DNA from: Levilactobacillus cerevisiae
Lineage (GTDB): Bacteria; Bacillota; Bacilli; Lactobacillales; Lactobacillaceae
Length of the DNA stretch: 64,000 nucleotides
Assembly: GCF_003946245.1 (NCBI RefSeq)
Contig: NZ_RHNN01000021.1
Span: forward strand, 1 to 64,000
Direction: 5' to 3'
Part shown: positions 6,079-62,720 of the stretch, piece after piece
Numbering within the stretch: position 1 is the stretch's first letter
Layout: every line of letters begins with the position of its first letter
Made by a program: the position numbers and the translations under genes
Notes under the pieces: generated by a model
What the model saw: the letters and a program-made list of their open reading frames with translations, nothing else
Database searches by the model: none
Told to the model about the DNA's origin: nothing

Positions 6079-6316
6079 GCTGAACGGGTCAACCGGATGG
6101 TTACAGCGCCTTGCCGGGCAGTCAAAATGGACCGGAACGCTGTGGGCGGACGCCGGAAGCCAAAGGACGGTCTTCCGCCTTACTTTGAACCGCTACGGAC
6201 CGCGTTTCAAAGATACCAATCCTCTAAATGGCCCAAAATCAGCCATTAAGAGGATTCCCACGGCTAAGTCCATTTTTGACTGCCCTATCGGCTAACACAC
6301 GTTCAACCAATTCAGC
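6079..6316 (+). repeat. Cloverleaf-fold dispersed repeat, copy A
   Basis: About 238 bp between walJ and htrA. The ends are complementary (GCTGAA and TTCAGC), and the inner closing stem pairs GGGCAGTCAAAATGGAC with GTCCATTTTTGACTGCCC apart from one bulged base. Inside are three hairpins: CCGGAAG with CTTCCG, TTTGAAcCGC with GCGtTTCAAA, and AATCCTCT with AGAGGATT. The remaining intergenic sequence on either side (5934-6078 and 6317-6462) shows no gene. Confidence 0.85.
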
Positions 6317-6462
6317 ATAATTTCGTCAACTGACTTAGCCTATTCCAGAACGGATCATCCAAATTGTGTACGAACAGCCGATACGCTAACCACTCACAGC
6401 GCACCAACTGACAATCAGCCACAAGCTTGTATCGACATCACCCACAGCACCAAATTCACCCG

Positions 6463-7290
6463 CTACAAAGCCACGAGCGGCGTTGCTTCTTCTGGATTGG
6501 TATCGATCAGCTGGAAGTCGTTGCCGACCCCGAAATCACGATTTTCCATCATTGAGGCCACGGTGAGGTGACACAGCGACTGCATGTTGTTGTGCAGACT
6601 CCGGTGACCAAGGTAAATCTTCTTGGTCCGGTTGCCCAGCACGTCCATCAAGGCGTCGGCGCCCTCTTCATTTGACAGATGGCCCTTATCGCCCAGGATC
6701 CGCTGTTTCAGTGGCCACGAGTACTCGCCCATCCGCAGCATTTCCACATCATGGTTACACTCCAACAGGTAGGCATCGGCGTCCGCAATCACGCCTTCCA
6801 CGTGCTCGGAAACGTAGCCGGTATCCGTCAAAATAACAAACGTCTTCCCGTGATAGTGAATCGCATAAAATTGGGGTTCAGCGGCATCGTGTGACACGGA
6901 AAAACTCTCCACGTCAATGTCACCAAATGTTTGAACCGTATCCGGCGCAAACAGGTGCTTTTGGGCCAAATCGACCTTACCAATTTTGCTATCCATCGCG
7001 TCCCAAGTGCCCTTGTTCGCATACACGTTTAGCTGCTCGTACCGCCGCGCCAGAATGCCGACTGCCTGCCGGTGGTCCGAGTGCTCGTGCGTGACCAACA
7101 AGGCGTTGACGTCCGTCATGTCGCGGTTGATGTCGCCCATTAATTTTTCAATTTTCTTGCCGCTCAACCCGGCATCAATCATGATGCGTTCGTTGGGGCT
7201 CTCCACGTAGGCCACGTTACCCGTGCTGCCACTAGATAAAATGCTGATGCGCAGGTCATCTGCTACTGCTGTATCCGTTCGCAAATTCAA
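6463..7290 (-). CDS. walJ: WalJ (YycJ), metallo-beta-lactamase-fold nuclease-like protein
   Basis: The 275-residue protein carries the HxHxDH metal site (His68, His70, Asp72, His73) and further ligands in SHDAAEP and TDTGY, typical of the WalJ/YycJ branch of the beta-lactamase fold. WalJ proteins are linked to coordination of wall metabolism and DNA replication or repair; the exact substrate is unsettled. The start is a TTG at 7288-7290, supported by AAGGAGAGG about seven bases upstream. The N-terminus is a few residues longer than in relatives that start near ISILSSGS. It is downstream of walI, but a terminator and two structured repeats lie between, so it is probably transcribed partly separately. 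Confidence 0.93.
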   Translation of the reverse strand: MNLRTDTAVADDLRISILSSGSTGNVAYVESPNERIMIDAGLSGKKIEKLMGDINRDMTDVNALLVTHEHSDHRQAVGILARRYEQLNVYANKGTWDAMDSKIGKVDLAQKHLFAPDTVQTFGDIDVESFSVSHDAAEPQFYAIHYHGKTFVILTDTGYVSEHVEGVIADADAYLLECNHDVEMLRMGEYSWPLKQRILGDKGHLSNEEGADALMDVLGNRTKKIYLGHRSLHNNMQSLCHLTVASMMENRDFGVGNDFQLIDTNPEEATPLVAL

Positions 7291-7352
7291 TTCGACCTCT
7301 CCTTAAATTTCAATACCGTAATCATACCGCATTTCAGCCCCCTTGTAACTAA

Positions 7353-7579
7353 TATTAATTGGGTTATAACGGATTGCCATCGCCTTACCGGGCGGAAAAA
7401 ATAGGCTGGAACGCTGGGGGAAGGACGGCCGAAGCCTAAGGATCGGTCTTCAGCCTTGCTTTGAACCGCTCAACCCGCGTTTCAAAGTCACCATTCTCTA
7501 AGAAAATCACTTAGAGAATCCCCCGGCTGAGCCTATTTTTTCCGCCCTCACGGCTGACATGCCGTTAATCCAATTAATG
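7353..7579 (+). repeat. Cloverleaf-fold dispersed repeat, copy B
   Basis: About 227 bp upstream of walJ. The outer arms pair ATTAATTGG with CCAATTAAT, and the inner closing stem pairs GGGCGGAAAAAATAGGCT with its perfect complement 18 bases long. The three inner hairpins are GGCcGAAG with CTTCaGCC, TTTGAAcCGC with GCGtTTCAAA, and ATTCTCTAA with TTAGAGAAT. The stem sequences differ from copy A, but the pairing is kept. Confidence 0.85.
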
Positions 7580-7647
7580 GTCCGGCTCTATTCATTTCCT
7601 ATACTATACAAATGATTGTCTCTCCCAATTCATGGATAAATGATACC

Positions 7648-7790
7648 AAAAAACGGTCTCTAGACTTATTTTGAGCCGCCAAGTTCGCGTCTCAAAAGTA
7701 TCAATTGCCTAAGCGGCTATCGCCACTAAGGCAATTCCCACGGCTTGGTTCATTTGCACCCGCCCTCCGGCTTACGTTTACGAATCCCGC
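7648..7790 (+). repeat. 5'-truncated copy C of the cloverleaf repeat, plus a remnant
   Basis: Only the right part of the element remains: from the loop of the first hairpin (ACGGTCTC), through TTTGAGcCGC/GCGtCTCAAA and ATTGCCTAAGCGGC/GCCACTAAGGCAAT, to the closing-stem side ending near CCGCCC. The left closing arm is missing. A further fragment resembling the second hairpin (CCTTGCTTTGAACC) lies at about 7882-7895. Confidence 0.7.
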
Positions 7791-7913
7791 AAATAATTTC
7801 TTCCTGCCACGGACTTAGTTCACCAATCTATCACAAGAGTAATAATTTCCAGTAGAGTACAAGCTCAGCAAAGGAATTTCACCTTGCTTTGAACCACCCA
7901 ACGTCCACCCCAC

Positions 7914-7937
7914 AAAAAAAGACGGCTCGCGGCCGCC
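7914..7937 (-). terminator. Intrinsic terminator between walI and walJ
   Basis: On the minus strand a compact stem (GGCGGC, loop CGCGA, GCCGTC with one G-U pair) is followed by seven U residues, about 40 bases after the walI stop. It should end much of the walRKHI transcript before walJ. Confidence 0.75.
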
Positions 7938-7978
7938 TTCCTCACTATCTTCACTCACAGGTATTCCGTGATATTGCG

Positions 7979-8836
7979 TTAATTACTAGTCGTCGACGTC
8001 CCGCTGACCGTCTTCACGTTGCTGTCGTTGGTCAGGATGGCCCCGGTGAACGCGTTGACGTGCTTCAGCTGGAGGACGCCCGCGTTGTTGCCACTATTGG
8101 CCTTAACCGCGATGACCCAGGTTGGAATATACACGCTGCTATTCTTCAACGTGAAGTAGCGCGTGTAAGCCAACTTGGTCCAGATAATTTTGGTGTTGTT
8201 GGCGATCTGGTTATATTGGTACAGCCAAATCAACGCCTTACGCTCCGAAATGGTCTCGGTTTTTTCCCGCAACGTCGCGACGCTTGCCAGGTACCCCTGG
8301 GTATAGCCGGTGACCTGGCCGTCATTGGTCAGGCTGAACCGAATTTCGCCATACCGGGAGTAAATCTGGCCGTCCGTGACGTGTTGGGTATACACGACGG
8401 TATTGCGGCTCGACAATTGACTGTTATAAAAGTAGTTGGTCCCATTTAAAATCAGGGCACCGTTATTAACGACGGTATCCAGCGTCTTATCCGGATGCTT
8501 GGTATCGACGCCAGTGATGGCCGTTTTAAACGTGGACGCAATCGTCCCATCCGTTTGGTAGCGCACGGTCTGATCACTCAGGCTCGTCAAGCTACTCTTG
8601 ATGCTAGCGTCGTTGGTCGTGGAAATGTAGTAGCCTTCGCCGCTCTTCTTGGACGGCGCGCTAAAGGTAATCTCGTCCGCCCGCATTTCCTTGATAATCG
8701 TGGTGTCACTGTCCGCAGAACGACTCGATGTGGTGTCGGTCTCACCGGACGTGTCCCGTTGAAAGGCGGCGAACAAGAAGATATCAATGACAATGAACGC
8801 GACTAAGAATAACCACTCGATGCGGCGAAAGTCCAT
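7979..8836 (-). CDS. walI: WalI (YycI), membrane regulator of the WalK kinase
   Basis: The 285-residue protein begins MDFRRIEWLFLVAFIVIDIF, the characteristic start and single membrane anchor of YycI, followed by an extracellular beta-rich domain. In B. subtilis, WalI and WalH form a membrane complex with WalK and restrain or adjust its activity. The ATG has a strong AGGAGG, and the gene follows walH by 28 bases. An intrinsic terminator follows. Confidence 0.94.
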   Translation of the reverse strand: MDFRRIEWLFLVAFIVIDIFLFAAFQRDTSGETDTTSSRSADSDTTIIKEMRADEITFSAPSKKSGEGYYISTTNDASIKSSLTSLSDQTVRYQTDGTIASTFKTAITGVDTKHPDKTLDTVVNNGALILNGTNYFYNSQLSSRNTVVYTQHVTDGQIYSRYGEIRFSLTNDGQVTGYTQGYLASVATLREKTETISERKALIWLYQYNQIANNTKIIWTKLAYTRYFTLKNSSVYIPTWVIAVKANSGNNAGVLQLKHVNAFTGAILTNDSNVKTVSGTSTTSN

Positions 8837-8864
8837 GCCGAACCGCCCTCCTTTTTTGACCGGC

Positions 8865-10163
8865 TTACTGCTGCTTCAACATCTGGTTGTAGGTTTTCCA
8901 GCTACCGTTGTAGTACACGTACCAGGTAGGCGTCAGGTTGACGACCTTATCCGATGAGGACGAGGCCAGCCACTGATACCCCAGCTGCAGGGTGCCGATT
9001 TTCTTCTTACTATACCCGGCAGCCGTCAACTGGTCAATGACGCTCTGCGTGCTAGGTAGCGATTCGGCTTTTTTATCCGTGGGTACGGGGACCTGGAGGC
9101 TGTACAGCGAGAAATTATACCGCCGCACACCCTGGGCCAACATTTGAATCCGCGCCGCACCATAGTTACTCTGATTGAAAATGGGGAACCCTTCCACGAA
9201 ACTACGGTAAGTCACGGTCGACTTGCCTTTACTGTAGCCGTAATAGCGCAGGTTTTCCATCGGGATCCCAATGGACTTGACCGCGGTATAACTGGCACTG
9301 AGCGCTTGGCTGAAGGTAAATGACGATTGCAAGGCGCTGTAGTCCTCATACAACGCGGTTCCCCGCTTATTATAAACGGTTAACTGCCGCGAAGCCCCAT
9401 CACTGTAAATCGTGTTGTCCTTGTTCTTCTTGGCCGAAACGTTGGTCGATTCCCCCTTGTTCAGCAAGCGGGTGGTGAAATAATCCGTCGACTGTTGGTT
9501 GACCAAGTAACTGTAGGATTGCACGGTCACACTACTATTGACGTAAGGGATGGCCGATTGGTTCAGCCACTTCATCTGGACGTTGATCCGGAACAGGTTT
9601 TCCTTAAGGATTTTCTGCAAGGCCGCCAAGTCACTCTTCCGCACACTGATTCGGTAGACTTCTTGATTCTGATCGTCCAACAAATACAGGTGTTTGGCGT
9701 CGTTCAACGGGATCATAATCCGGGAAAATTCCGCGGAGTGCCGCGCCAATTGACTGCCAAAGACGGTATTAAACATTTTAATATTCACGGGTGCCGAATA
9801 CGAGAGCAGCAAACTACTCTTCGTCGTTAAATATTTCATGTACTCGGCACGGGACCCCGGTTGAATCCGCCGAATGCCACCCAGTTCCCATTTAGACAGG
9901 GCCTCACGGATTTCCGTGGTCAGGTTAACTTTTCGGTTGTTCAGGAGTTCCTGCTTGCCGGCAGCGTTGCTGTAAACGACTTCCGTGGGCAGGTACACAT
10001 CCTTTTGCGGACGGGTGTTCAGCTCGGTCGTCGGGGTATTGGAACTCCGCTGACGACTGCGCTCATACTGCGCGGGATTCGTCCAAATCATGGCCGATAA
10101 CGTCACACTGACTGCCACGGCTATGGTCAATCCCAGTGGTAGAAGTGCTTTAGTTATCTTCAT
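8865..10163 (-). CDS. walH: WalH (YycH), membrane regulator of the WalK kinase
   Basis: The 432-residue protein has one N-terminal membrane segment (about residues 6-26, MKITKALLPLGLTIAVAVSV onward) and a large extracytoplasmic YycH domain. The start is the ATG at 10161-10163, preceded by GAGGAGG. It overlaps the end of walK by 14 bases, showing translational coupling. A longer in-frame extension upstream has no RBS and lies wholly inside walK. It acts with WalI on WalK. Confidence 0.94.
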   Translation of the reverse strand: MKITKALLPLGLTIAVAVSVTLSAMIWTNPAQYERSRQRSSNTPTTELNTRPQKDVYLPTEVVYSNAAGKQELLNNRKVNLTTEIREALSKWELGGIRRIQPGSRAEYMKYLTTKSSLLLSYSAPVNIKMFNTVFGSQLARHSAEFSRIMIPLNDAKHLYLLDDQNQEVYRISVRKSDLAALQKILKENLFRINVQMKWLNQSAIPYVNSSVTVQSYSYLVNQQSTDYFTTRLLNKGESTNVSAKKNKDNTIYSDGASRQLTVYNKRGTALYEDYSALQSSFTFSQALSASYTAVKSIGIPMENLRYYGYSKGKSTVTYRSFVEGFPIFNQSNYGAARIQMLAQGVRRYNFSLYSLQVPVPTDKKAESLPSTQSVIDQLTAAGYSKKKIGTLQLGYQWLASSSSDKVVNLTPTWYVYYNGSWKTYNQMLKQQ

Positions 10164-12006
10164 CCCAGAGATCCTCCTCATCGTACGGCTTGTAAGGCAG
10201 GGAAATGTAGAACGTGGACCCGCGGCCTTCACGACTGTCGACCCAGATTCGGCCGCCCAGCATTTGCACGACTTCCTTGGAAATCGCTAAGCCCAGACCG
10301 GTACCACCTTGCGCCCGAGAACGGGCCTTATCTACCCGGTAGAAGCGGTCAAAGATGCGGGGAATATCGGCCCGCAGAATCCCCAACCCTTGGTCAGACA
10401 CGCTCAAAATGACGTTATTGTGCGTTTCCAGCAGGCGGGCGGTGACGACCCCACCATCTGGTGAATACTTGATGGCGTTGTTCATCAGGTTGTCGAGCAC
10501 CTGCGTGAACCGGTCCGTGTCGATTTCGACCCAGAGATCCCGCTTGGTGAAGTCCCGCTTGATGGTATACGTCTTCTCCGGCTTGTCGTCTTGCTTCAAC
10601 ATCATGTCAAACCGGTCTAAAACGTAATTGAACAACTCGTTTAGATTGACCATTTCCAGGTCGACCTTCTGCGTCCCGGAATCCATCCGTGACAACGTTA
10701 ACAGGTCATTGATCATCCGAATCATCCGGTCAGTTTCTTCCTGGGTGACCTTCAAGAAACGTGGAGCCACCTCAGGATCCTTCCAAGCCCCTTCGGAGAG
10801 GGACTCGATGTAGGCGCGCACGCTGGTTAACGGCGTCCGCAACTCATGGGACACGTTGGAAACGAACTCTTTCCGGTCTTGATCGATCTTTTGTTGCTCG
10901 GTGACATCATGGAGCACACAGACCAACCCGGAAATAAAGCCAGACTCCCGTTGAATCAAGGAGAAGTAGGCTTGGAGGATTAAGTCATGTTCTTTCGTTG
11001 AAAAATCCAACACTAACTCATCGGGATCTTCCAGCAATTCGCGCAACGTATAGTCGTCACGAATGTCCAGTAAGTCCAAAATGGATTTACCCACGGCGTC
11101 ATCGGGGTCGTGGTCAAGGAAACTGCTGGCAGTCTCGTTAATAATCGTGACGTTCCCGCGCCGATCGGTGGCAATAACGCCGTCGGTCATGTGGGCCATG
11201 ACGGAATCCAGCCGGCGTCGTTCGGACTCGGTCGACTCTTGGGCCTCTTCCACCCGCACGGACAGGTTATTGACGGCACTGGCAAGTTGTCCCAGCTCAT
11301 CATTCCCGTACACGTGCACGTGGCCAGAGTAGTCTCCCCGGGCGATCCGCAACGTCTGCTTCTTCATTTCATCGATTGGTCGGGTTATAGCCCGGGAAAT
11401 AATTATCGCCATGACCAGTCCTAAAATAATCGCCACAAACGTTGCCGATACATAGATCAGCGTGATTTGATTGATATTTTGATAGACCGAGTCCAGGCTC
11501 GACCGCATGTAAATAACCCCGACTAATTCGCTGTTATTTCCCTGAGTACGAATCAGCCGTGTAATGGTGGTGTAGTAGCGACTATTATTCTGAGAATTAT
11601 AAGTCGTCCGCACCACATCGCGGTTATTATAGATGGCGTTCTTAATGTTGTTATCAGTGGTTTTTTGCCCAACGATCCCTTGGTTATCAACTTCATTGGT
11701 CCCCCGAATGGTCCCCTTGTTGTCGATGACCCGAATCTGAGCGTTATTGGTATTGTTGATTTCTGACAGGGTTGACTTGATCTGCTTATCACTTTTGGTG
11801 GTATTAGTCGTGGTCAGCTCATCGGACAGTCGATTGACAATGTACGTTTGAACCACCTGTTGGGCCTTGAATGTATTTAAATTCTGGCGTTCCAACTGGC
11901 GAACGAACACAGCGCCAACAATCTCCAGCGTTAAAAGTAGGAGTAGCGCGAAGACCAGCGCGATCTTAAAATGAATCGACTGGAAAAATTTTATTTTACT
12001 ATTCAC
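10150..12006 (-). CDS. walK: WalK (VicK), essential cell-wall sensor histidine kinase
   Basis: The 618-residue protein has transmembrane segment 1 (about 11-34), an extracellular sensor loop, transmembrane segment 2 (about 181-204), a HAMP domain (205-256), a PAS domain (about 262-372), the dimerisation and phosphoacceptor helix with His387 in SHELRTP, and a catalytic ATPase domain with N box (NLMNNAIKYSP) and G boxes (DQGLGI, GGTGLGLAIS). It phosphorylates WalR to control peptidoglycan hydrolases. The start is GTG 12004-12006 with GAGGAG 11 bases upstream. It lies 44 bases downstream of walR. Confidence 0.97.
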   Translation of the reverse strand: MNSKIKFFQSIHFKIALVFALLLLLTLEIVGAVFVRQLERQNLNTFKAQQVVQTYIVNRLSDELTTTNTTKSDKQIKSTLSEINNTNNAQIRVIDNKGTIRGTNEVDNQGIVGQKTTDNNIKNAIYNNRDVVRTTYNSQNNSRYYTTITRLIRTQGNNSELVGVIYMRSSLDSVYQNINQITLIYVSATFVAIILGLVMAIIISRAITRPIDEMKKQTLRIARGDYSGHVHVYGNDELGQLASAVNNLSVRVEEAQESTESERRRLDSVMAHMTDGVIATDRRGNVTIINETASSFLDHDPDDAVGKSILDLLDIRDDYTLRELLEDPDELVLDFSTKEHDLILQAYFSLIQRESGFISGLVCVLHDVTEQQKIDQDRKEFVSNVSHELRTPLTSVRAYIESLSEGAWKDPEVAPRFLKVTQEETDRMIRMINDLLTLSRMDSGTQKVDLEMVNLNELFNYVLDRFDMMLKQDDKPEKTYTIKRDFTKRDLWVEIDTDRFTQVLDNLMNNAIKYSPDGGVVTARLLETHNNVILSVSDQGLGILRADIPRIFDRFYRVDKARSRAQGGTGLGLAISKEVVQMLGGRIWVDSREGRGSTFYISLPYKPYDEEDLWDEDN

Positions 12007-12050
12007 GAAGTCACATACTCCTCAATGCGAGATTTAGCGTTTCCGCTAGC

Positions 12051-12767
12051 TTAGGCCTGGTCGGAATCTGGGTTGCGCAGGTAGTAGCCAACCCCCCGCC
12101 GCGTCACCAGCCAAGTTGGGTGGCTAGGGGCGTCCTCGATTTTTTCACGCAGGCGCCGAACCGTCACGTCAACCGTCCGGACATCACCGAAGTAGTCGTA
12201 GCCCCAGACCGTTTGCAGTAAATGTTCGCGGGTCATGACTTGGCCAATGTGTTGGGCTAAGTAATGGAGGAGTTCAAACTCACGGTGCGTTAAATCAATG
12301 TTGGCGCCGCGCTTAGAAACGGAATAGGCTTCGGGATGGATGGTTAAATCACCAATCTCGATGTCTTGGTTTTCTGGCTCTTCCGGTTGAGCGTGTGCCG
12401 CGGTATTCTGCCGCCGCAGGTTCGCTTTGACCCGGGCAACCAGTTCCCGGTTAGAGAATGGCTTGGTGACGTAATCATCGGCGCCGACTTCGAGGCCGAC
12501 GACCTTATCCAATTCAGAATCCTTAGCCGTGACCATGATGATTGGCATATCATACTTCTTGCGAATCTCACGGGCAACTTCCAGCCCATCAACCTTAGGC
12601 AACATCAAATCAAGAATAACCAGGTCCGGATGTCCCTCTTCAACCTGTTGAATAGCCGCTTCGCCATCGTAGGCAACATCGACTTCGTATCCTTCTTTTT
12701 CCAAATTAAACTTCATAATATCAGTAATTGGTTTTTCATCATCGACAACGAGAATTTTCTTAGGCAT
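12051..12767 (-). CDS. walR: WalR (VicR), essential OmpR-family response regulator
   Basis: The 238-residue protein has a receiver domain with acidic pocket VVDDE and phosphoacceptor Asp53 (ILDLMLP), the conserved Lys in YVTKPFS, and a C-terminal winged helix with the LTHREFELL block. It is the partner of WalK. The ATG has GGAGG about ten bases upstream. It is the first gene of the operon, and a leader of about 240 nt separates it from the predicted promoter. Confidence 0.97.
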
Positions 12768-13006
12768 AGTAAAAAGTTCCTCCTTAAGGAAGTGCGCGCG
12801 ATCCGGTAATTACAGGATTACCGGCAGACCGGCCGTTGGGTGTCACATTACCACCGACAACGGGGCCACTACAGGTTCTTTTCAGTTTCTTTCATCGTTT
12901 AAAGTCAAGGAATAGTGAGTCATCTTTTGTTGATGACTCGATGTTTTTAAGAGTGCGTTGCGTGACCCGAGAAAGATCCGGTATCAGTGAAAACAACGCT
13001 AACTGA
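12768..13006 (-). other. Long structured 5' leader of walR
   Basis: Between the predicted promoter and walR lie about 240 nt without a gene but with several perfect or near-perfect hairpins: CCGGTAAT/ATTACCGG at 12803-12824, GGCC-GTTG/CAAC-GGCC around 12830-12880, and GAGTCATC/GATGACTC at 12917-12939. The palindrome TCCTTAAGGA at 12781-12790 overlaps the walR Shine-Dalgarno. None is followed by a U run, so they are not simple terminators. A role in translational or stability control is an inference. Confidence 0.45.
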
Positions 13007-13035
13007 ATTATAACACATCATGAAGTTTCTTTCAG
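13007..13035 (-). promoter_or_regulatory. Predicted promoter of the wal operon
   Basis: Minus-strand -35 CTGAAA at 13030-13035, 17-bp spacer and TATAAT at 13007-13012, with TG one base upstream of the -10 hexamer (extended -10). Confidence 0.65.
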
Positions 13036-13074
13036 TCCTAGTCTATCAAGGATTTAAGGTAGTTTTAACCCGTT

Positions 13075-13088
13075 ATTTCCCGGGAAAT
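13075..13088. promoter_or_regulatory. Noc binding site-like palindrome
   Basis: The 14-bp perfect palindrome ATTTCCCGGGAAAT is identical to the B. subtilis Noc-binding consensus. Noc coats the nucleoid and blocks FtsZ assembly over it. The site is in the gene-free interval upstream of walR. The rest of 13089-13551 shows no gene I can support. Confidence 0.6.
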
Positions 13089-13551
13089 AAAATGATTTGA
13101 CGGACAAAATACATTATTATGTCTATTAAGCCATGAAAATTCGGTGAAAATGGCGGCCCACACCGACCAAATAGGAGGTGGCGGCTCTTTTTCCAAAGCA
13201 TTTTTCAATCGGTACTCTTACAATTGGCTAACTCTTAATCGTTTGTTAAGGTCTTCGGCTTTGTCTCTGGGTTCAATCGTCGTGGCTTATTTCCCAAAAG
13301 TGACGCTGAATTCTCTGAAAGAACGGTAATTTTAAGCCAGTTTAAAATAATTTGGGTTTTGACCAGCATGTAAAACGGCTTACCTCCCACCAATTACCTT
13401 GAAAAGCTGGTTCAGATTGCCAAAAAAACAAAAAAATTTTCTAACTGCTGAAATCCGTGTCAATCCGCATGAAACCGGGGATAGTTTTTCCTTCAGTATG
13501 GTAGAATACCCAGTATTTTTGAATAAAAATAAACTTTTTTTTGAAAAAGGG

Positions 13552-13580: not shown

Positions 13581-13621
13581 AGTTCTCGTTGATATGGAAG
13601 ACATACGACAAGCAATCACAT

Positions 13622-13694: not shown

Positions 13695-13702
13695 TCACTT
13701 AC

Positions 13703-14535: not shown

Positions 14536-14552
14536 AATATAAATACTTAACC

Positions 14553-20451: not shown

Positions 20452-20667
20452 GGTTAAACGGATCGTTGCCAGGGCCTCTGGGCTGGTGAAAATGAGACCG
20501 GACCGCGGTGGGCGCCCGCCCGGAGCTAAAGACCGGTCTCCGAGCTTACTTTGAGCCTCACACCCCGAGTCTCAAAAATAGCAATTGCCTAACCGGCCTT
20601 CGCCGCTAAGGCAATTCCCACGGCTTGGCTCATTTTCACCAGCCCTGCGGCCAACATTAGTTTAACC
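20452..20667 (+). repeat. Cloverleaf-fold dispersed repeat, copy D
   Basis: 216 bp between the divergent MFS and FMN-reductase genes. Ends GGTTAAAC/GTTTAACC; inner closing stem GGGCTGGTGAAAATGAG with CTCATTTTCACCAGCCC, a perfect 17-bp pair; hairpins CCGGAG/CTCCG, TTTGAG.CTC/GAG.CTCAAA and AATTGCCTA.GGC/GCC.TAAGGCAATT. No other gene or element is seen in 20380-20834. Confidence 0.88.
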
Positions 20668-32504: not shown

Positions 32505-32856
32505 TTGACATTCCCCAAATTCCTGCTAAACTAGCAATCATTAACAATTGATTAGAAAATTAAAAGTGATGACGAAGACCAGTACCGTCGTTGGTCATTG
32601 TTAGCGAGCCCGGTTAAGTGCAAGCGGGTCAAAGCTAACGACGCGAACTCCCTTCTGAACTGTCAGCTGAACTCATAGTAAGCCCGACCGGTGGCAACCG
32701 TTATCCCTGCAGTGAATCGCGACCTGGCTGGCTCATCGGACCTAGCTGATGACAACCCGCCTCTAGGAGTGTCGCCGTTCACGTTCGAGTAAAAATTAAG
32801 GTGGTACCGTGCGACAGCGCCCTTACGGAGAAGTTATTTCCGTAGGGGCGCTTTTT
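32505..32856 (+). promoter_or_regulatory. T-box riboswitch 2 with its promoter
   Basis: Promoter TTGACA (32505-32510), 16-bp spacer, TG-n-TAAACT. Stem I has AGTA (32581) opposite CGAA-CTC-C-CTTC, so the specifier reads CTC (Leu), as in the glyQS layout of GAA, specifier, one base, CTTC. The T-box AAGGTGGTACCGTGCG lies at 32799-32814 (TGGT, discriminator A, fits Leu). The terminator GCGCCCTTACGGA/TCCGTAGGGGCGC plus five T ends at 32856. It controls the adjacent lipoprotein gene. Confidence 0.93.
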
Positions 32857-36030: not shown

Positions 36031-36408
36031 TTGACAATCCATCTTTTGGTGGTAAACTAGCAATCATTAACGATTGATTAGAAAATGAAAATGTGATGAT
36101 GAAGTCCAGTAGCAGTGACTCAGCTTGTCAGCGAACCCGGTAAAGTGAGAGCGGGTCAAGCAAGTCACTGTGAACATCCCTTCGGAGCAGTTAGCTGAAA
36201 ACCAAGTAAGTGCATACCGGGAGCATCCGTTATCAATGCAGTGAATCGCGGGAGTAGTCGCGGCTTTCATCGATCCTAGCCTTGGGGTCGTGACTTCTAG
36301 GAAGCTCGCCGTTCATAAATTAGACGATGCGTTTTCGCGTCGCAAAAATAAGGTGGTACCGTGCGCAAGCACCCTTACAGAGAGTCATTTTCTGTAGGGG
36401 TGCTTTTT
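36031..36408 (+). promoter_or_regulatory. T-box riboswitch 3 with its promoter
   Basis: Promoter TTGACA (36031-36036), 16-bp spacer, TG-n-TAAACT (36053-36058), the same design as T-box 2. Stem I has AGTA (36109) opposite TGAACATCCCTTC. Read directly after GAA the specifier is CAT (His); read to keep one base before CTTC it is ATC (Ile). The T-box AAGGTGGTACCGTGCG (36350-36365) has TGGT, requiring discriminator A, which fits Ile and not bacterial tRNA-His (C73). Terminator GCACCCTTACAGA/TCTGTAGGGGTGC plus T run at 36369-36407. Confidence 0.93.
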
Positions 36409-55542: not shown

Positions 55543-55576
55543 AAACTGACACTCCTTTTCGTGGTGCGTGTTGTTT

Positions 55577-55717
55577 AACTTAATTAAAAGAAAAAAATAG
55601 TAGCCGTAGTAGAGCGGTGTATTCTGTGGATAACTTTACGTAACAGCCTGTGTTACTAGTCTTTCCACCTGTGGATAACTTGTGGATAACTTTGACGCTT
55701 TTGAAATCTTATCCACA
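55577..55717. other. oriC: oriC part 2 (dnaA-dnaN spacer): DnaA boxes, DnaA-trio and AT-rich unwinding element
   Basis: DnaA boxes TGTGGATAA at 55625, 55670 and 55681 and TTATCCACA at 55709. Directly before the first box lie AGCGG, then TAGTAG-CCG-TAGTAG (55598-55612), a DnaA-trio-like run (5'-TAG triplets). Next to it is an AT-rich stretch (TTAATTAAAAGAAAAAAA). This order (boxes, GC spacer, trios, AT-rich DNA) is that of the B. subtilis unwinding element. Confidence 0.85.
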
Positions 55718-55814
55718 CGCACCGTTAGCTCACTGGCTTAATCATACCGCAGTTGGTCGCAAAAAGACCGTCGCGAGTCTGCTAAATGTTCGGTTGACCC
55801 GGGACGATCTGACG

Positions 55815-57173
55815 CTAGCGCCGTAATTCGTCTTTTAAACTTTCGATGTCCTTTTGCAACTCGGTATCAGTTTTCAAGGATTCGGTAATCTTGTCGTAGG
55901 CGTGAATCACGGTCGTGTGATCCTTGCCGCCAAATTCATTGCCAATCCGGGGTAGTGAAGCCTCAGTCAATTCGCGTGACAGGTACATGGCGATTTGCCG
56001 CGGCATGACGATGGCTTTCTTACGTTTCTTCCCCTTTAAGTCCTTGAGTGAGACGTTGAAGTAGTTCGCGACGCGGTCTTGAATCACAGGAATCGTGATG
56101 GCATCACTAGCATTGGCCAAGTTCAAGCTCTTCAAGGCTTCCGCGGCCAAATCAGTGGTGATTGGCTGGTGCATCAGCTGAGAGTAGGCTTGAACCCGGG
56201 CCAAGGCGCCCTCCAGTTCCCGGACGTTGGAATCAATCTGACCCGCGATGTAGCTGAGCGTATCGTCGGGGATGTCGATCTGGTCGGCGTCGGCCTTATT
56301 CCGTAAAATGGCGATCCGTGTCTCCAAGTCTGGTGGTGTGATATCAACGGAAAGACCCCAAGCAAACCGCGAAACGAGGCGGTCTTGGAGCTTGGGAATT
56401 TCGTTAGGTAGCCGGTCGGACGTCAGCACGATTTGCTTGCCGTCGTCGTAAAGGGCGTTGAATGTATGGAAGAACTCTTCTTGTGTTCCTTCCTTATTAG
56501 CGAAGAACTGAATATCATCAACCAGTAGCAGATCAACGTTACGGTACTCCTGACGGAACTGCTCCTGCGTCCGTGTTTGAATCGCATTAATAAAGTCGTT
56601 CGTGAAGGCCTCGCTAGTCACGTATTTGACCTTGGTGTCCGGGCGATCTTCCAGCATTTTATTGCCAATCGCGTGCATCAAGTGGGTCTTGCCTAAACCA
56701 ACGCCACCGTAGAAGAACAGCGGATTGTACATCACGCCGGGTTCTTCGGAGACCACCAGGGCCGCAGCGTGGGCCATCTGGTTGCCTTTTCCGATAACGA
56801 AAGTGTCAAATGTGTAGCGGGAATTCAGCGCCGTTTCCTTCATAAAGGTAGGCGTCGGCTCTGTCGAGACAGCTTCCCCAGGGGTCGCGGTCTTGGCCTT
56901 GAGCGTGGCTTGTTGCTGGCGCTCGCCCTCCAAAATGAGGATGGGCTGAATATCTTCGTGAACGGCTTGGTATGCGTATTCTACCAATTGCTGGTCCAGG
57001 TGTTGATGGGTCCAGTAATCACGATGCAGGGGTGATGGGAGTTCCAACGTTAATTTGTTGCCGTTTAAGGCAATCGGCTTGGCGGTTTCGATCCAGGTCG
57101 AGTAGGCTGTCTTGGAATTGTTTTTCTCAAACAAGGCCTTGATGTCAGTCCACAAAGTTAACATATCTGGCAC
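55815..57173 (-). CDS. dnaA: Chromosomal replication initiator DnaA
   Basis: The 452-residue protein has domain I (about 1-80, DnaB/SirA-type interaction), a short linker, the AAA+ domain with Walker A GGVGLGKT (156-163) and Walker [11 protein letters not shown], and domain IV with the [18 protein letters not shown]-binding signature. It melts oriC and regulates its own gene. The start is GTG 57171-57173 with AGGGGGA eight bases upstream. Confidence 0.99.
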
Positions 57174-57272
57174 TGATGTTTCCCCCTAATTTTCAATTAA
57201 AATCTCATCTAGCGTTTGGACGGATTCCACCCAAACGAAAACGTAAGTCCAGTGTAGCATGAAGAAAAAAAG

Positions 57273-57542
57273 TTTTCCACAGGGTATTCCGAGGTGTGCA
57301 TAATTGTTTCACAGGAAGTGGATTGAGTTATCCACAGGGTCGGAAAAATCTGTGGATAAATTTAAGCGACTAAAGTTATGCACAGGTTCAAGCTAACTAA
57401 GAATAGCACAACGGTAAGTGTTTCACAAGTTATCCACAGAAATCACAATTCCTGTTTTTTTAGAATTCACAGTCTGTGGAACGGTGGATAACTCGGTTGG
57501 CAAGTCCGGAATAACTTTTCCTTAAAACTAGAGTTATCCACA
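57273..57542. other. oriC: oriC part 1 (upstream of dnaA): cluster of DnaA boxes
   Basis: Boxes at 57273 (TTTTCCACA), 57295 (TGTGCATAA), 57328 (TTATCCACA), 57351 (TGTGGATAA), 57376 (TTATGCACA), 57430 (TTATCCACA), 57484 (GGTGGATAA) and 57534 (TTATCCACA), in both orientations. With the dnaA-dnaN boxes they form a bipartite origin, and replication genes and ribosomal genes point away from it on both sides. Confidence 0.92.
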
Positions 57543-57627
57543 GGCAAAGTGCATGAAACAAATTTTACTGGGCACAACTTTTTTAATGAAATTCAAAGTT
57601 GCTGTTTCATTTCTCTCTTTTTTATGC

Positions 57628-57633
57628 TAATAT
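57628..57633 (+). promoter_or_regulatory. Predicted rpmH promoter (-10)
   Basis: Extended -10 TG-n-TAATAT about 77 bases upstream of rpmH, with no strong -35. Confidence 0.45.
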
Positions 57634-57709
57634 GTTCAGGAAATGCATTTAGTATTTGTCTGGCAACACCAGATAAAAAATAGTCATAGATCAGAGAGGA
57701 GATTTTACG

Positions 57710-57844
57710 ATGAAGCGCACTTTCCAACCAAAGAAACGTCACCGTTCCCGTGTCCACGGCTTCCGCAAGCGCATGAGCACTAGTAATGGCCGTCAAGTAT
57801 TAGCACGTCGCCGTCAAAAGGGACGTAAAGTATTGTCTGCATAG
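57710..57844 (+). CDS. rpmH: 50S ribosomal protein L34
   Basis: The 44-residue, very basic protein reads [20 protein letters not shown] and ends KGRKVLSA, identical in form to L34 of other Firmicutes. GAGGAG lies eight bases upstream of the ATG. It is the first gene right of oriC, followed by rnpA. Confidence 0.98.
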
Positions 57845-57939
57845 GCCGCTGATGGTTCAGTGGTCTTTTTATTTTATCTGCGGGGAGACTGGAACACCAA
57901 TCCCGCGCGGACTGTAAATCGAGAATTTTGGAGATGCAC

Positions 57940-58296
57940 ATGCGAAAATCTTACCGCATTAAGAAAGAAGCGGAATTTCAGCAGGTCTTTGAAACCAGGA
58001 ATTCAGTCGCAAACCGGCAATTCGTGGTCTACTCAATGGAAAAACCTAACCAAAAGCACTTTCGGGTCGGCATTTCCGTCGGGAAAAAGATTGGTAACGC
58101 CGTTCACCGTAATTGGGTGAAGCGCCGGATCCGGCAGAGCCTTCTCGAGCTGAAGCCATATTTGAAACAAGATGTGGATTTTCTCGTGATTGCGCGGCCC
58201 CGGGCGGACGGTATCAGTATGCCCGACGCGAAGAGCAGCATGATTCACGTGTTGAAGTTAGCGAAACTACTGGATTCCAACTATAGCGAGGAATAA
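57940..58296 (+). CDS. rnpA: Ribonuclease P protein component
   Basis: The 118-residue basic protein has [19 protein letters not shown] and the RNR-type motif [12 protein letters not shown]. It assists the RNase P RNA in tRNA 5' maturation. The ATG at 57940-57942 lies six bases after GGAG; earlier in-frame starts overlap that site. It overlaps no neighbour but leads directly into yidC. Confidence 0.96.
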
Positions 58297-58298
58297 AC

Positions 58299-59141
58299 GT
58301 GAAAAACGTGAAAAAGTACAAACGTACCCTACTTATGCTGGGCATTGTGAGTCTGGTCTTTATCCTTTCTGCTTGTAGCAATAAGCCAATCACCAATCAA
58401 AGTACCGGGATCTGGGACGGATTAATCGTCTTAAACTTCTCGCGGGCGATTATCTGGTTGGCCAACTTGTTCGGCGGCAGTTACGGTGTCGGGATCATTG
58501 TCTTCACCATTATCATTCGGGTGATCTTGTTGCCACTGATGATCTTCCAAACGCGCAGCATGCGGAAGACCCAAGAGGTGCAACCACAATTAAAGGCCCT
58601 CCAAAAGAAATATTCGTCTAAAGACCGTGAAACCATGGCCAAGCTACAATCCGAACAGCAAAAGCTGTATTCGGAAGCCGGCATCAATCCGTTGATGGGG
58701 TGCTTGCCAGCCTTGGTTCAACTGCCAATTATCTGGGCTTTGTACCAGGCCATTTGGCGGACGGCCGTTCTGCGGTCCGGGACTTTCCTGTGGTTACAAT
58801 TGGGCCACAAGGACCCGTACTTCATTTTGCCAATCTTGGCCGCGTTAGCGACGTTCGCAAGTTCGTGGTTAACCACCAAGTCGGCACCGGAAACCAACTC
58901 CATGAACATGATGATGGTTGTGGGGATGCCGGTGGTGGTCTTCTTCACCGCCTTGAACGTTGCATCGTCCCTGTCACTGTACTGGACGGTTTCCTACATT
59001 TTCCAAGTGGGTCAAACCTTACTCATTCAAAATCCGTGGAAGATTCAAGCGGAACGCGATGAGAAACAAAGGGAAAAGAACCAGCATGACCGCGCCGTGA
59101 AGAAAGCTGTTCGGCGGGCCAAGCAAAGCAAACGTAAGTAA
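58299..59141 (+). CDS. yidC: Membrane protein insertase YidC (SpoIIIJ/OxaA1 type, lipoprotein)
   Basis: The 280-residue lipoprotein has the lipobox LSAC (Cys26), a large extracellular gap, five membrane segments and the conserved Arg in IIRVILLPLM that forms the hydrophilic groove. It ends in a basic tail (KKAVRRAKQSKRK) that docks ribosomes. The start is GTG 58299-58301, two bases after rnpA stops. It inserts membrane proteins with or without SecYEG. Confidence 0.96.
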   Translation: MKNVKKYKRTLLMLGIVSLVFILSACSNKPITNQSTGIWDGLIVLNFSRAIIWLANLFGGSYGVGIIVFTIIIRVILLPLMIFQTRSMRKTQEVQPQLKALQKKYSSKDRETMAKLQSEQQKLYSEAGINPLMGCLPALVQLPIIWALYQAIWRTAVLRSGTFLWLQLGHKDPYFILPILAALATFASSWLTTKSAPETNSMNMMMVVGMPVVVFFTALNVASSLSLYWTVSYIFQVGQTLLIQNPWKIQAERDEKQREKNQHDRAVKKAVRRAKQSKRK

Positions 59142-59163
59142 CACCAACTGAAATGCATTTCTG

Positions 59164-59197
59164 AGTCGCCCTGACGAAAGTGGGGCGGCTTTTTTTT
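59164..59197 (+). terminator. Intrinsic terminator of yidC
   Basis: Stem GTCGCCC with GGGGCGGC followed by eight T residues. Confidence 0.92.
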
Positions 59198-59328
59198 GTG
59201 AAAAGAGTGCGACCAAAGGCGCTTAGCTGGCGAGCATTAAGGCTGATAGCCGGATAATCCCGGGCTTGGATTATTCGGCTATCAGTTTTAAGCGGAGTCG
59301 GCTGCCTTGGGTCGCACTCTTTTCACAA
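59196..59328. repeat. 133-bp near-perfect inverted-repeat hairpin downstream of yidC
   Basis: The outer arms TTGTGAAAAGAGTGCGACC and GGTCGCACTCTTTTCACAA are perfect 19-bp complements. The apical stem CTGATAGCCGGATAATCC with GGATTATTCGGCTATCAG is almost perfect (one G-T), and the middle pairs partly. It is unrelated in sequence to the cloverleaf repeats. It could be a MITE remnant or a structured RNA. The interval 59329-59746 beyond it shows no gene or clear element. Confidence 0.85.
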
Positions 59329-59746
59329 GGTAGCGGTGGTGCGTGCCCTAAAACAACTGATCCTGAACTAATTAGCTCTAAACCAACCGGTCCCAAATCC
59401 AGTGAGCTCAAATCGGGGACCAAAAATCAAGTCCGCCAAAAAGCCAATCATCCCCAACAATGCTCACATAGAGTACTAACGAAACTCATCCAACATTTGT
59501 GACCCCAATTCGCTAGGCTTAAGGGTTTCTTACGGTTTGAACACGCAAATAAGGTCACGGCCAACCTCAAATTCAGGTTAAACCTGGCCCTAAATTGTGA
59601 ATCCTAGCAAGAATTTAATTTCGTTAGGGAATACTTAGGGAACCGTTACGCTTTCACCACGCCCCAGTCACGTTTTCTTCGCAAAACACCGGCACCATTG
59701 AGGCTAATGATGCGGCATAAGTTTTGAGAGAAAAGAAGGGATTTTT

Positions 59747-60943
59747 GTGGAAGCAATAACGAAAACGGCGGTGAAGAAAAAACGGCCGTATCTATACGAA
59801 GTGGACTTCATGCGGCTATTTTTCATCTGCGGGGTGCTGTTTAACCACAGCATCAACGTGGTGCTTGACGCCATGAGTACCACCGGGTGGGCCAGCACGA
59901 GCTTGAGCGACGTCCGGTTAATGTTTCACTACAGCCGTAACGGGTTTCTGTTCATGAGTGGTCTGGTCCTGGCGATGAATTATTACAAACGCCACGAGTG
60001 GGGGCGCTTTTATAAAAAACGTTTTGGCGGCAGTCTGGGGCCGTACCTCGCTTGGAACCTGATTTTCTTGATCCTCTATACCAGTTTGGGTGGCGGCAGT
60101 ACCGGGCAGTCATTTGGGCTGACCTACCTTGACGACATAGTTCACGGCGGGCACTACTACATGTATTACATGTTGCTGGTGATGCAGTTATACCTCGTCT
60201 TCCCGGGAATCGTCTGGCTGTTCCAGCACAGTCAGCATCACTTGCGGTTGCTAGGCGTCAGCTTTGTGGTCCAACTGGCCATCGATGCCTGGATCAAATT
60301 TCAACTGGAATACCTGAACTTGGCGGGATGGCCGTACTGGTTCCGCCACTTTAACATTAATATTTTTGTATATGAATTTTACATTATCTTTGGCGTCTAC
60401 ACGGCCCTGCACTACCGCGAGGTCTCGACGTTTATCGACCGGCACATCAAGGTGATTGCGGCCAGCGCGTTGGCGTTGTGCCTGGGCACCGTGGCCTACC
60501 TGCGTTGGTGGAACATGGGTGTCTTGCATATGAGCTACGACTTTGCCACCTCGCCGCACCAGCCGTACATGCAGGTCTTTGACGCCGTAATGATTGTCAC
60601 GGTGTTCTGGCTGGGACAGCGTTATGCCAAATGGCGGGCCGGCAGTCTGCCCCCCGAACTGGCGCAGAACGTCAAGACGGGTGCGAAGATCAGCTTCGGT
60701 ATGTATTTGAACCAATCATTTTGCTTGTATTTGCTCGGACGCTTTCTGGGCACGCTAACCGTGAACGATGGCACGCTTCTGGCCATCTTGCCGGTCGGCT
60801 ACGGCGTCGTGCTCACGCTGTCGGTGGCGGTGGCGTACTTCTGTTACCGGGTGGCGCCGTTTGGCTGGCTGATTGGGCGGCCGCAGTGGCATCCGTGGCA
60901 GTGGCTCGCCACCCTACGCCAACCCATCCACGCCGAAAAGTAG
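59747..60943 (+). CDS. Acyltransferase-3-like membrane protein
   Basis: The 398-residue protein has about ten membrane helices and begins YLYEVDFMRLFFICGVLFNH, the start of the acyltransferase-3 family (OafA/IcaC-like), with the catalytic His expected in the first helix (NH). Such enzymes acetylate or otherwise modify cell-surface polysaccharides or wall polymers. The start is GTG 59747-59749 after GAAGGGA. It is an insertion relative to the usual yidC-jag order. Confidence 0.8.
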   Translation: MEAITKTAVKKKRPYLYEVDFMRLFFICGVLFNHSINVVLDAMSTTGWASTSLSDVRLMFHYSRNGFLFMSGLVLAMNYYKRHEWGRFYKKRFGGSLGPYLAWNLIFLILYTSLGGGSTGQSFGLTYLDDIVHGGHYYMYYMLLVMQLYLVFPGIVWLFQHSQHHLRLLGVSFVVQLAIDAWIKFQLEYLNLAGWPYWFRHFNINIFVYEFYIIFGVYTALHYREVSTFIDRHIKVIAASALALCLGTVAYLRWWNMGVLHMSYDFATSPHQPYMQVFDAVMIVTVFWLGQRYAKWRAGSLPPELAQNVKTGAKISFGMYLNQSFCLYLLGRFLGTLTVNDGTLLAILPVGYGVVLTLSVAVAYFCYRVAPFGWLIGRPQWHPWQWLATLRQPIHAEK

Positions 60944-60950
60944 CGTCGCA

Positions 60951-61188
60951 CCGGATCTGGTTTACTAGGATGTTGGCAGTGCCTCCGGGCTGGTGAAAAT
61001 GAGACCGGATTGCTGTGGGCGCCCGTCTGGAGCCAAAAGGCGGTCTCCAGACTTACTTTGAGCCGCTGAGAAACGCGTCTCAAAGATAGCAATTGCCTAA
61101 CCGGCAAGAACCGCCGCTAAGGCAATTCCCACGGCTTGGCTCATTTTCACCAGCCCTGCGGCGAACATTGTGGTAACCCGTGATCCGG
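60951..61188 (+). repeat. Cloverleaf-fold dispersed repeat, copy E
   Basis: 238 bp. Ends CCGGATC/GATCCGG, then ATGTT/AACAT, then the closing stem CGGGCTGGTGAAAATGAG with CTCATTTTCACCAGCCC. Hairpins GTCTGGAG/CTCCAGAC, TTTGAGcCGC/GCGtCTCAAA and AATTGCCTA.CGGC/GCCG.TAAGGCAATT. Best preserved copy in the window. Confidence 0.9.
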
Positions 61189-61270
61189 GCGTGCGCAATT
61201 TCTCTGTGACTGGGTAGCGTCGTCCGGGTCCAAAAAGGTTAACAGTAGCGACACTGCTGATGGACTAGCC

Positions 61271-61490
61271 GGGTTACACGGATGTGAGCCGAGAGGGCGG
61301 CGAAAATAAACTCAGCCGGAGGAACGCCCTTAACGGCGGGTTAGGCCGTTTAGGGCGTTGGCGTCTTTGAGACTTGGTTTTTAAGGCTCAAAGCGAGCCC
61401 GAAGACCGCCTTTTGGCTTCGGGTGTCCGCCCCCAGCGTTCCGGTTTATTTTCGCCGCCCGGTAAGGCGCCAGTGATATCCGTGTAACCC
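61271..61490 (-). repeat. Cloverleaf-fold dispersed repeat, copy F (inverted)
   Basis: 220 bp in the opposite orientation to copy E. Ends GGGTTACACGGAT and ATCCGTGTAACCC are perfect 13-bp complements; inner stem GGGCGGCGAAAATAAAC with GTTTATTTTCGCCGCCC. Hairpins CCCGAAG/CTTCGGG, TTTGAGcCTT/AAGtCTCAAA and AACGCCC/GGGCGTT: all different from copy E but all paired. The short gaps around it, up to jag, show no gene. Confidence 0.9.
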
Positions 61491-61548
61491 AGACCAGACG
61501 CGTTATGGTATACTAATGCTTAGCGAAAACAACATGGAGGAATGGATG

Positions 61549-62349
61549 ATGACGATCTACACGGGGAAAACGGAAGAGGCAGCGATTGCGGCGGGACTGG
61601 CTGCGCTGAATACGAGTCGCGACCAAGTTGTCACCAAGGTGGTCACCGCTCCACGCAAGGGTTGGCTGGGTATTGGTCATCGCGATGCTATGGTTGATGT
61701 GACATTGAAGCCCGTTGCTGTGGCACAAGAACAGGCGAGCCAGGCAGTCACCCAACCGGTTAAAGCAGTTGCGACGCCAGCGCCGGTTGACCAGCCAACG
61801 ACACCGGCGTCTGTAGCGCCCCAAGCGGCGGCTAAGCCAGTTCAACCGGTTGTCCCAGACTCACCAGCCATTGACCCCGCAAAACGCCGTGAGCAACGAC
61901 AGGCGGCCATTGACGGCGTGCAGGACTATTTAGCCACCATCGTCGATCAACTGGGCATCGATGCCAGTTTGGACGTTGAAAACGTGGCTCACCGGCAAGT
62001 TCACCTGTCTTTTACCACCGACAAGGAAGGCTTATTAATCGGGAAGCACGGCCGAACGATTAACGCGCTTCAGAGTTTAGCCCAACTCTATTTAAACCAT
62101 CACGGTGCCGCTCACGTGGACGTGGTGCTGGACGTGGCGGGCTACCGGGAACGGCGGACGGCGACGTTGACTCGGCTGGCTGAATCAACGGCCCGCGAAG
62201 TTGTGGCGACCGGCAAGCCGATTTATTTGGACCCGATGCCATCGTTTGAACGGAAACAGATTCACGCTGTTTTGGCTAGAAATCGCTACGTCACAACTTA
62301 TTCGGCTGGCAAAGAGCCACACCGCGCCGTTGTGATTGAGCCGGATTAG
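61549..62349 (+). CDS. jag: RNA-binding protein Jag/KhpB
   Basis: The 266-residue protein has an N-terminal Jag_N domain (YTGKTEEAAIAAGL to PRKGWLGIG), a Pro/Ala/Val-rich linker (about 55-115), a KH domain with GKHGRTINALQSLAQLY, and an R3H domain (ATLTRLAESTAREV to HAVLARN). KhpA/KhpB bind RNA and affect cell division and elongation. The ATG at 61549-61551 is eight bases after GGAGG; an adjacent upstream ATG is also possible. Confidence 0.94.
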   Translation: MTIYTGKTEEAAIAAGLAALNTSRDQVVTKVVTAPRKGWLGIGHRDAMVDVTLKPVAVAQEQASQAVTQPVKAVATPAPVDQPTTPASVAPQAAAKPVQPVVPDSPAIDPAKRREQRQAAIDGVQDYLATIVDQLGIDASLDVENVAHRQVHLSFTTDKEGLLIGKHGRTINALQSLAQLYLNHHGAAHVDVVLDVAGYRERRTATLTRLAESTAREVVATGKPIYLDPMPSFERKQIHAVLARNRYVTTYSAGKEPHRAVVIEPD

Positions 62350-62411
62350 TTTAGGTTTGACAAATGAGCCGTTAGCCCTTATAGTGAAGACAATCATTCT
62401 TATCAAGTTTA

Positions 62412-62476
62412 CGATAAAGTAGTGAAAGTACTTTATCCACGTACAGTTAGGTGGCGTGGAGTAGGTGCTTTTTTTT
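62412..62476 (+). terminator. Probable terminator of jag
   Basis: Imperfect stem with CCACG/CGTGG at its top, followed by eight T residues, about 60 bases after jag. Confidence 0.55.
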
Positions 62477-62498
62477 ATGGCGTTAAATGATACGCCCG

Positions 62499-62720
62499 GC
62501 GGGTTGAACCGGTGTGGCGGCCTCCGGGCTGGTGAAAATGGGACCGGAACGCTGTGGGCGCCCGTCTGGAGCCAAAGAGCGGTCTCCAAACTTACTTTGA
62601 GCCGCTGAGAGTCGCGTCTCAAAGATAGCAGTTCCCTAAGCGACCAAGACCGTCACTAAGGCAATTCCCACGGCGAGGCCCATTTTCACCAGCCCTGCGG
62701 CGGACACGGGTTTAGCCCGC
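62499..62720 (+). repeat. Cloverleaf-fold dispersed repeat, copy G
   Basis: 222 bp between jag and mnmE. Ends GCGGG/CCCGC and closing stem CGGGCTGGTGAAAATGGG with CCCATTTTCACCAGCCC. The first two hairpins are kept; the third is partly broken (AGTTCCCTAAG opposite TAAGGCAATT), so this copy is decaying. Confidence 0.85.

Follow-up and report, generated by a model that had tools for sequence, protein, structure and literature searches.

Palindromic repeats of bacteria, miniature inverted-repeat transposable elements (MITEs) among them, keep a near-fixed sequence within a family, and those of the REP/REPIN type are tied to a Y1 (RAYT) gene. The hairpin elements of mitochondria are smaller units than those described here, and the template switching that acts on quasipalindromes has no intrinsic polarity beyond the direction of replication. 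In this work we analysed the first 64,000 nt of contig NZ_RHNN01000021.1 of Levilactobacillus cerevisiae (assembly GCF_003946245.1), hereafter the window, which holds seven dispersed hairpin elements (copies a to g). Unlike bacterial palindromic repeats as they are generally known, these elements have stems that differ between copies and genera yet remain complementary, and outermost arms that match the flanking sequence. On balance, they are probably copies of a high-copy, non-coding DNA hairpin repeat whose arms were written by fold-back copying.

Bacterial MITEs, REP/REPIN, ERIC, BOX and the Rickettsia palindromic elements are, as the elements studied here, high-copy, non-coding, intergenic and palindromic (compare PMC10969869, PMC3733652, PMC2229807). 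REP/REPIN are given as short palindromes of 20–40 bp in one source (PMC3733652), whereas the units found here measure about 200 and 260–300 bp and the copy-rich genome of L. wangkuiensis has no Y1 match. Mitochondrial repetitive or double-hairpin elements are likewise dispersed, intergenic and hairpin-forming but belong to organelle genomes; a mode unlike DNA transposition was suggested for those of Allomyces, which lack flanking duplications, and the passages concerned mention no inverted copy of the flank (PMC2800124). Template switching that extends or homogenises the arms of inverted repeats is also documented, for quasipalindromes with arms of about 4–16 bp and as a local mutation (PMC3820800, PMC8604942); here the copied stretch extends tens of nucleotides into the flank, with fixed polarity and in a dispersed family. 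Finally, the structured RNAs of Rfam share with these elements a fold with strong covariation, but the elements are nearly devoid of wobble pairs.

Distribution and architecture of the family

The seven elements apparently belong to a large dispersed family of DNA hairpins, undescribed to date. A covariance model was built from 60 copies, among which were copies a, b, d, e and f of the window (f as locus L001); these five match it by construction, and c and g were outside the building set. The model recovered the seven copies with E-values from 1e-15 to 5e-30, the best remaining matches in the window having E-values of 0.37 and 0.44. An earlier note, made from the sequence of the window alone, had reported the same seven copies, and profile and covariance model place all of them within a few tens of bases of the starts given there. 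In the copy that it described as truncated (c, at 7648) the profile found no left trunk arm, its match beginning at profile position 64, but the head is still recognisable (model positions 1–134, 74.8 bits). Seven is, however, an undercount for the genome: all of the 150 candidates scored (of 1,555) matched the model at E <= 1e-4, which gives at least 150 copies. A blastn search with copy e located at least 45 places in this genome (40 of 136 candidates scored).

Genomes are designated G000 (that of the window), G016 (L. mulengensis), G014 (L. lanxiensis) and G029 (L. wangkuiensis). In stretches picked for gene order, and with fragments included, 83 hits per 320 kb were counted in L. mulengensis and in L. 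lanxiensis and 61 per 254 kb in L. wangkuiensis; the repeat occupies 4.3–4.7% of the measured stretches of these three food lactobacilli and is thus very abundant. Matches to copy e were obtained by blastn in 21 of 35 genomes of the genus, G029 being copy-rich (at least 25 matches; 23 scored of 242 first-look candidates). Across the Lactobacillaceae the covariance model found matches in at least 82 of 301 genomes and at least 12 of 40 genera; as 11 candidates were scored per genome, these counts are floors, and the E-values are rough.

No match to copy e at E 1e-5 was found among plasmid and phage records. The earlier note knew of no named family that fits, and Rfam agrees: at the gathering score the whole window gave nothing on the elements, only a tRNA elsewhere, and in region 60900–62800 (copies e to g), with E up to 1, the sole match was RybB at E 0.99. 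The repeat was not described either among the matches listed in the open-licence literature (titles and abstract starts). We regard the family as a variant of mobile palindromic repeats, its nearest kinds being bacterial MITEs, palindromic repeats and mitochondrial hairpin elements.

In the unit, of about 200 nt, a trunk of 17 bp and an inner junction stem carry a three-hairpin head. In a longer subtype, of about 260–300 nt, the trunk is extended; of 279 full-length copies 64 reached at least 235 nt, 63 of them in the 260–300 bins. Terminal inverted repeats are present, with a right-end consensus TGACACTGGTTTAACCCG and a looser left end. When ten loci were folded (eight from other genera, two from the same genus), the junction motifs recurred and the stems differed in sequence and stayed complementary. 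The distant relatives L234, L237 and L241 (genus g4), L239 (g12) and L232 (g38) had the same head and junction motifs, and their trunks differ yet remain complementary.

Covariation of the stems

Covariation was measured on a set formed by copy e and 59 of the 94 copies remaining after an 88% identity cut in the head. In these 60 copies 98.4% of 2,200 cells were paired and 21 of 37 pairs had changed on both sides. The covariation score was 0.366, against 0.121 (standard deviation 0.006) in shuffles and 0.037–0.070 in slid controls, and none of 500 shuffles reached it. The fold proposed in the earlier note is, therefore, supported by covariation.

The usual reading of such a result would be a structured RNA, that is, a 3' untranslated or intergenic element selected for its RNA fold. 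Besides the strong covariation, copies often lie between a stop codon and a terminator-like site, and many of them are probably transcribed for this reason. However, the stems show no wobble tolerance on either strand. Changes go from one Watson-Crick pair to another (9,895 of 10,306 cells in 186 copies were Watson-Crick), and among the remaining cells there were 100 G-U and 187 A-C, of which three adjacent columns, apparently shifted by one base, hold 38 and 78, respectively. The 60-copy set gave 12 G-U and 19 A-C in its 2,200 cells. With the same treatment, 32 tRNAs of the window's genome gave 25 G-U and 3 A-C in 640 cells, and a smaller control of 6 tRNAs gave 11 and 1 in 130. Strand-symmetric mutation produces G-U and A-C equally, an equality that selection on an RNA strand should not give.

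The decay of pairs between orthologous copies followed the same pattern. Three species provided 88 ortholog pairs and hence 176 directed comparisons, of which 42 under 80% identity were dropped and 134 kept; each ortholog pair is counted up to twice, so that p-values are rough. Watson-Crick pairs broken by one change became G-U in 340 cases, A-C in 359 and another mismatch in 465. This symmetric decay, together with G-U being no commoner than A-C in the stems, points to pairing at the DNA level.

Double changes in the outer arms numbered 17, against 13.1 expected. Because this is no clear compensatory excess, decay of the outer arms after their formation is mostly unopposed and near-neutral. 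In the head there were 173 double changes against 31.4 expected, 143 of which retain Watson-Crick pairing, and the head thus holds 143 of the 172 pair-keeping double changes. In four inspected ortholog cases most of the head double changes were in hairpin 3, as exchange between dispersed copies would give. As the pair-keeping changes are mostly in the head and the inspected ones largely hairpin 3 swaps, blocks that were inherited or exchanged enter into the family-level covariation counts. Some orthologs of G014, G016 and G029 differ in hairpin 3 as a block, in units that are otherwise similar over much of their length.

The genes to the left of the elements (here and below, predicted open frames rather than annotated genes) point either way, 73 being co-oriented and 59 opposed. 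These orientations, the decay of the outer arms, the lack of an Rfam match and above all the wobble counts led us to reject an RNA as the principal explanation, and we consider it very unlikely. Of the two options left by the earlier note, the structure-constrained mobile repeat is supported and the new structured RNA is not. Copying of DNA, and not a working RNA, looks like the source of the RNA-like covariation.

Outer arms and position relative to genes

The outermost arms had been described as copy-specific yet complementary and as unlike the fixed ends of insertion sequences, and both statements hold. The arms pair in six of the seven window copies (duplexes of -17 to -42 kcal/mol; copy c, -11 kcal/mol), and the best explanation for them is that they repeat the left flank in inverted orientation; they look like the end of the neighbouring gene, copied backwards. 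In 165 of 273 copies, kept after rows with shared arm words were dropped, pairing of left and right arms stayed above mismatched-partner controls to about 40–50 nt outward and came close to them from 60 nt on. When identity was counted from the core edge, it exceeded the 99th percentile of mismatched pairs at 32 of 83 sites with coding sequence on the left and at 15 of 82 others (0.8 expected in each), and beyond 22 nt from the core edge at 8 of 83 and 10 of 82, respectively.

A test restricted to coding sequence compared the last 60 nt before the stop codon with the right flank past its conserved 18 nt at the 83 coding-left sites, which may include orthologs or array mates with diverged arms. 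Inverted similarity exceeded the 99th percentile of mismatched partners at 12 sites (0.8 expected), the best score being 24 and the highest among 2,490 controls 16; in direct orientation a single site did so. In the near flanks of 91 isolated copies local similarity above the 99th percentile was inverted in seven and direct in one, and in the other distance classes direct similarity passed that level in 1–4 of 91, in a test that did not cover duplications of 2–9 nt.

Relatives lacking a unit were then compared at the same gene ends. At L018 the window's genome has a unit right after the stop codon, and the inspected stretch of L. wangkuiensis, L. mulengensis, G002, G008 and G013 has the same gene end without it. 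In inverted orientation the right arm can be aligned to 48 nt of the coding end (score 15, p 0.0015, uncorrected), and the three scored relatives without a unit reach 8–10. At L006 the right arm aligns inverted over 60 nt of the coding end (score 22, reached by none of 4,000 random stretches), and G003, G025 and G009, without a unit, score 7–11; G002 and G013 carry another element-like sequence there and were left out of the scoring. All six scored relatives thus fall below the random 95% level of 12–14. Locus L006 is also occupied in L. lanxiensis, L. mulengensis and L. wangkuiensis, and as these share the inverted copy (21–23), the event seems to predate their split from the window's species.

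These two loci also bear on the possibility that the units inserted into pre-existing palindromes or terminators, the outer arms being the two halves of a target hairpin. Terminator-like hairpins were indeed seen by eye after the stop codon in the unit-less relatives at L018. However, as much as 60 nt of the arms is coding sequence, and none of the six relatives shows an inverted copy within 300 nt. In addition, of 46 cases examined with a home-made finder, 25 had a terminator-like site in the 200 nt on the right side of the element and 2 had one between it and the stop codon. A palindromic target, against which both tested loci speak, is extremely unlikely.

The position of the elements has a fixed polarity. 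Among 56 isolated full copies (three species and the window; orthologs were counted separately, which makes the copies non-independent), 42 had a gene 0–60 nt from the left edge of the core and one had a gene that close to its right edge, three further values being overlaps; in this the elements are unlike quasipalindrome template switching. Full copies are mildly biased along the main gene direction (27 against 11 in L. mulengensis), and 12 of 144 longer hits have their midpoint inside a predicted frame. That the element replaces the terminator, as L018 and L126 had suggested, was not borne out, given the right-side sites in 25 of 46 cases. At gene ends without element a terminator-like site lay within 100 nt in 85 of 301; this distance differs from the 200 nt used above, and the two rates are not comparable.

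Arrays of two to four units also occur. In those at L160, L153, L083 and L118 every unit is followed by similar right-flank sequence particular to the locus, and the left half is often missing from the rightward units. It is as if the newest unit of an array always adjoined the gene.

Proposed fold-back copying, alternatives and other features of the window

In the mechanism that we propose, the unit would be a long, near-perfect DNA hairpin (the trunk) topped by the three-hairpin head, and would come to lie, in fixed polarity, just past a gene boundary. The hairpin would permit DNA synthesis of the fold-back (snap-back, template-switch) kind. After copying the right trunk arm, a 3' end would fold onto the left arm and continue into the left flank, so that the gene end would be written once more, inverted, on the right side of the element (about 35–75 nt at the aligned sites). 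This copying probably takes place at or soon after arrival, and pairing may be needed for spreading. The same arm-to-arm copying, together with exchange between dispersed copies, could plausibly keep the stems Watson-Crick perfect while their sequence drifts. Since template switching alone gives no polarity, the head, by directing the start of synthesis, or some enzyme would have to set it. In quasipalindromes, too, one arm is copied from the other, and concerted changes extend or perfect the palindrome (PMC3820800, PMC8604942); here an arm is rewritten as a complement at the 12 coding ends mentioned and at L018 and L006. Covariation confined to Watson-Crick pairs, one flank copied in inverted orientation and near-neutral decay are, in our view, explained most simply by fold-back synthesis.

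Several points weigh against this explanation. The trunk of orthologous copies has a small excess of double changes (28 against 5.9 expected), and the broken pairs of the outer arms lean to G-U (131 against 103, p 0.08). In the coding-only test 71 of the 83 sites stayed below the 99th percentile. The four loci studied in detail (L018, L006, L126 and L032) were picked for high-ranking arms, their p-values being uncorrected for that choice, and two of them are of little help. L126, occupied in three species, is weak (L. lanxiensis 12, p 0.017; L. wangkuiensis 12; L. mulengensis 16), and it does not discriminate because the L. lanxiensis coding end also scores 12 against the unit-less flank of the window's genome. 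At L032, on a promoter side, the right arm resembles the inverted left flank, including a motif conserved in unit-less relatives; the site is ambiguous, and the direction of copying uncertain, because the sequence left of the unit differs from the relatives as well. Generic template switching does not predict a strict polarity. Regarding enzymes, no Y1 match was found in copy-rich G029 (other transposases were not searched) and no reverse transcriptase match (PF00078) in copy-rich G000 and G016; Y1 and reverse transcriptase were both rejected as drivers, each being absent from some copy-rich genome. Finally, no fresh insertion was seen: in a masked-flank search among the three close species 266 of 277 cluster comparisons had an element in the target, and six inspected cases of the 11 without it were old, decayed copies. 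The mobility of the family is suggested by its dispersal and was not seen happening.

The elements could also be non-autonomous transposons (MITEs) moved in trans by an ordinary or a single-strand (HUH/Y1, REP-type) transposase that reads the folded head; template switching at the base of the hairpin would then have added the outer arms separately and at a later time. This agrees with the inverted-repeat ends, the dispersal, the fixed polarity and the asymmetric head, and IS200-like Y1 genes are present in 23 of 35 genomes of the genus, one of them within the window. The absence of a Y1 match in G029 counts against a Y1 transposase, other transposase families not having been searched. No autonomous element with the same ends was found in the loci and stretches examined, nor did split element halves flank a gene there; a single place (in two overlapping sources) had separated halves, 306 bp apart. 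We consider this possibility unlikely, although less so than the others.

A retro-type insertion would account at once for the polarity and for the inverted copy of the flank. Here a target-primed copy would begin at the left flank, and the new strand, folded back on itself, would lead second-strand synthesis through that flank. The genomes without a PF00078 match and the lack of a wobble signature on either strand make it quite improbable. An integron attC-like site was considered for the motifs GTTAAAC and GTTTAAC near the ends and rejected, the order of the motifs being opposite to that of the attC consensus as generally known.

The coordinates of the copies, of the parts of copy e and of other features of the window are listed below. 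Two candidate T-box leaders, just below the Rfam gathering score of 93, are also present. The first precedes a solute-binding protein gene and an amidohydrolase gene, and the second a similar block because the region is tandemly repeated, with a spacing of about 3.5 kb and stretches 71–82% identical.

Coordinates of the elements and of other features in the window
Feature	Position	Strand	Evidence
Copy a, full length; outer arms extend beyond the profile hit	6100–6307	+	Profile; covariance model 134.2 bits at 6130–6269
Copy b, full length	7374–7570	+	Profile; covariance model 112.2 bits at 7404–7532
Copy c, head retained; no left trunk arm detected	7621–7780	+	Profile 7646–7780; covariance model 7621–7749, 74.8 bits
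Copy d, full length	20465–20667	+	Profile; covariance model 127.6 bits at 20496–20629
Copy e, full length, downstream of acyltransferase gene 59747–60943	60972–61179	+	Profile; covariance model 136.4 bits at 61003–61140
Copy f, full length, inverted; left end faces jag/khpB-like gene 61516–62349	61271–61473	-	Profile; covariance model 136.1 bits at 61310–61446
Copy g, full length	62519–62718	+	Profile; covariance model 130.6 bits at 62542–62679
Copy e, stretch tested as outer left arm; contains upstream stop codon 60941–60943	60936–60980	+	Duplex -42.3 kcal/mol
Copy e, trunk (closing stem), left arm; pairs with 61140–61156	60987–61003	+	Sequence reading, folding
Copy e, inner junction stem, left arm; right arm 61128–61135	61012–61019	+	
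Copy e, hairpin 1	61025–61052	+	
Copy e, hairpin 2; 5 of 11 modelled pairs invariant in 60 copies	61056–61085	+	
Copy e, hairpin 3; two-sided changes in 11 of 12 modelled pairs (60 copies)	61091–61127	+	
Copy e, trunk, right arm	61140–61156	+	Sequence reading, folding
Copy e, stretch tested as outer right arm	61163–61207	+	
IS200-like Y1 transposase gene, 139 codons	29151–29567	-	Pfam Y1_Tnp 4.8e-23
T-box leader	32560–32827		86.7 bits
T-box leader	36087–36379		88.8 bits

Tentatively, the family may represent a new kind of mobile DNA, in which a hairpin would spread by self-primed fold-back copying, would leave as its signature a duplication of one flank that is inverted rather than direct, and would always have the same orientation to a gene boundary; arm-to-arm DNA copying would keep its structure and so lead to very strong covariation without RNA function. 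As a mark of insertion, a flank duplicated in inverted orientation and with fixed polarity would be unusual. Covariation is commonly regarded as a hallmark of functional RNA, and here the wobble signature speaks against that usual reading. The family is therefore a test case for telling selection on RNA from arm copying at the DNA level, and the count of G-U against A-C pairs would offer a cheap filter for RNA-discovery pipelines.

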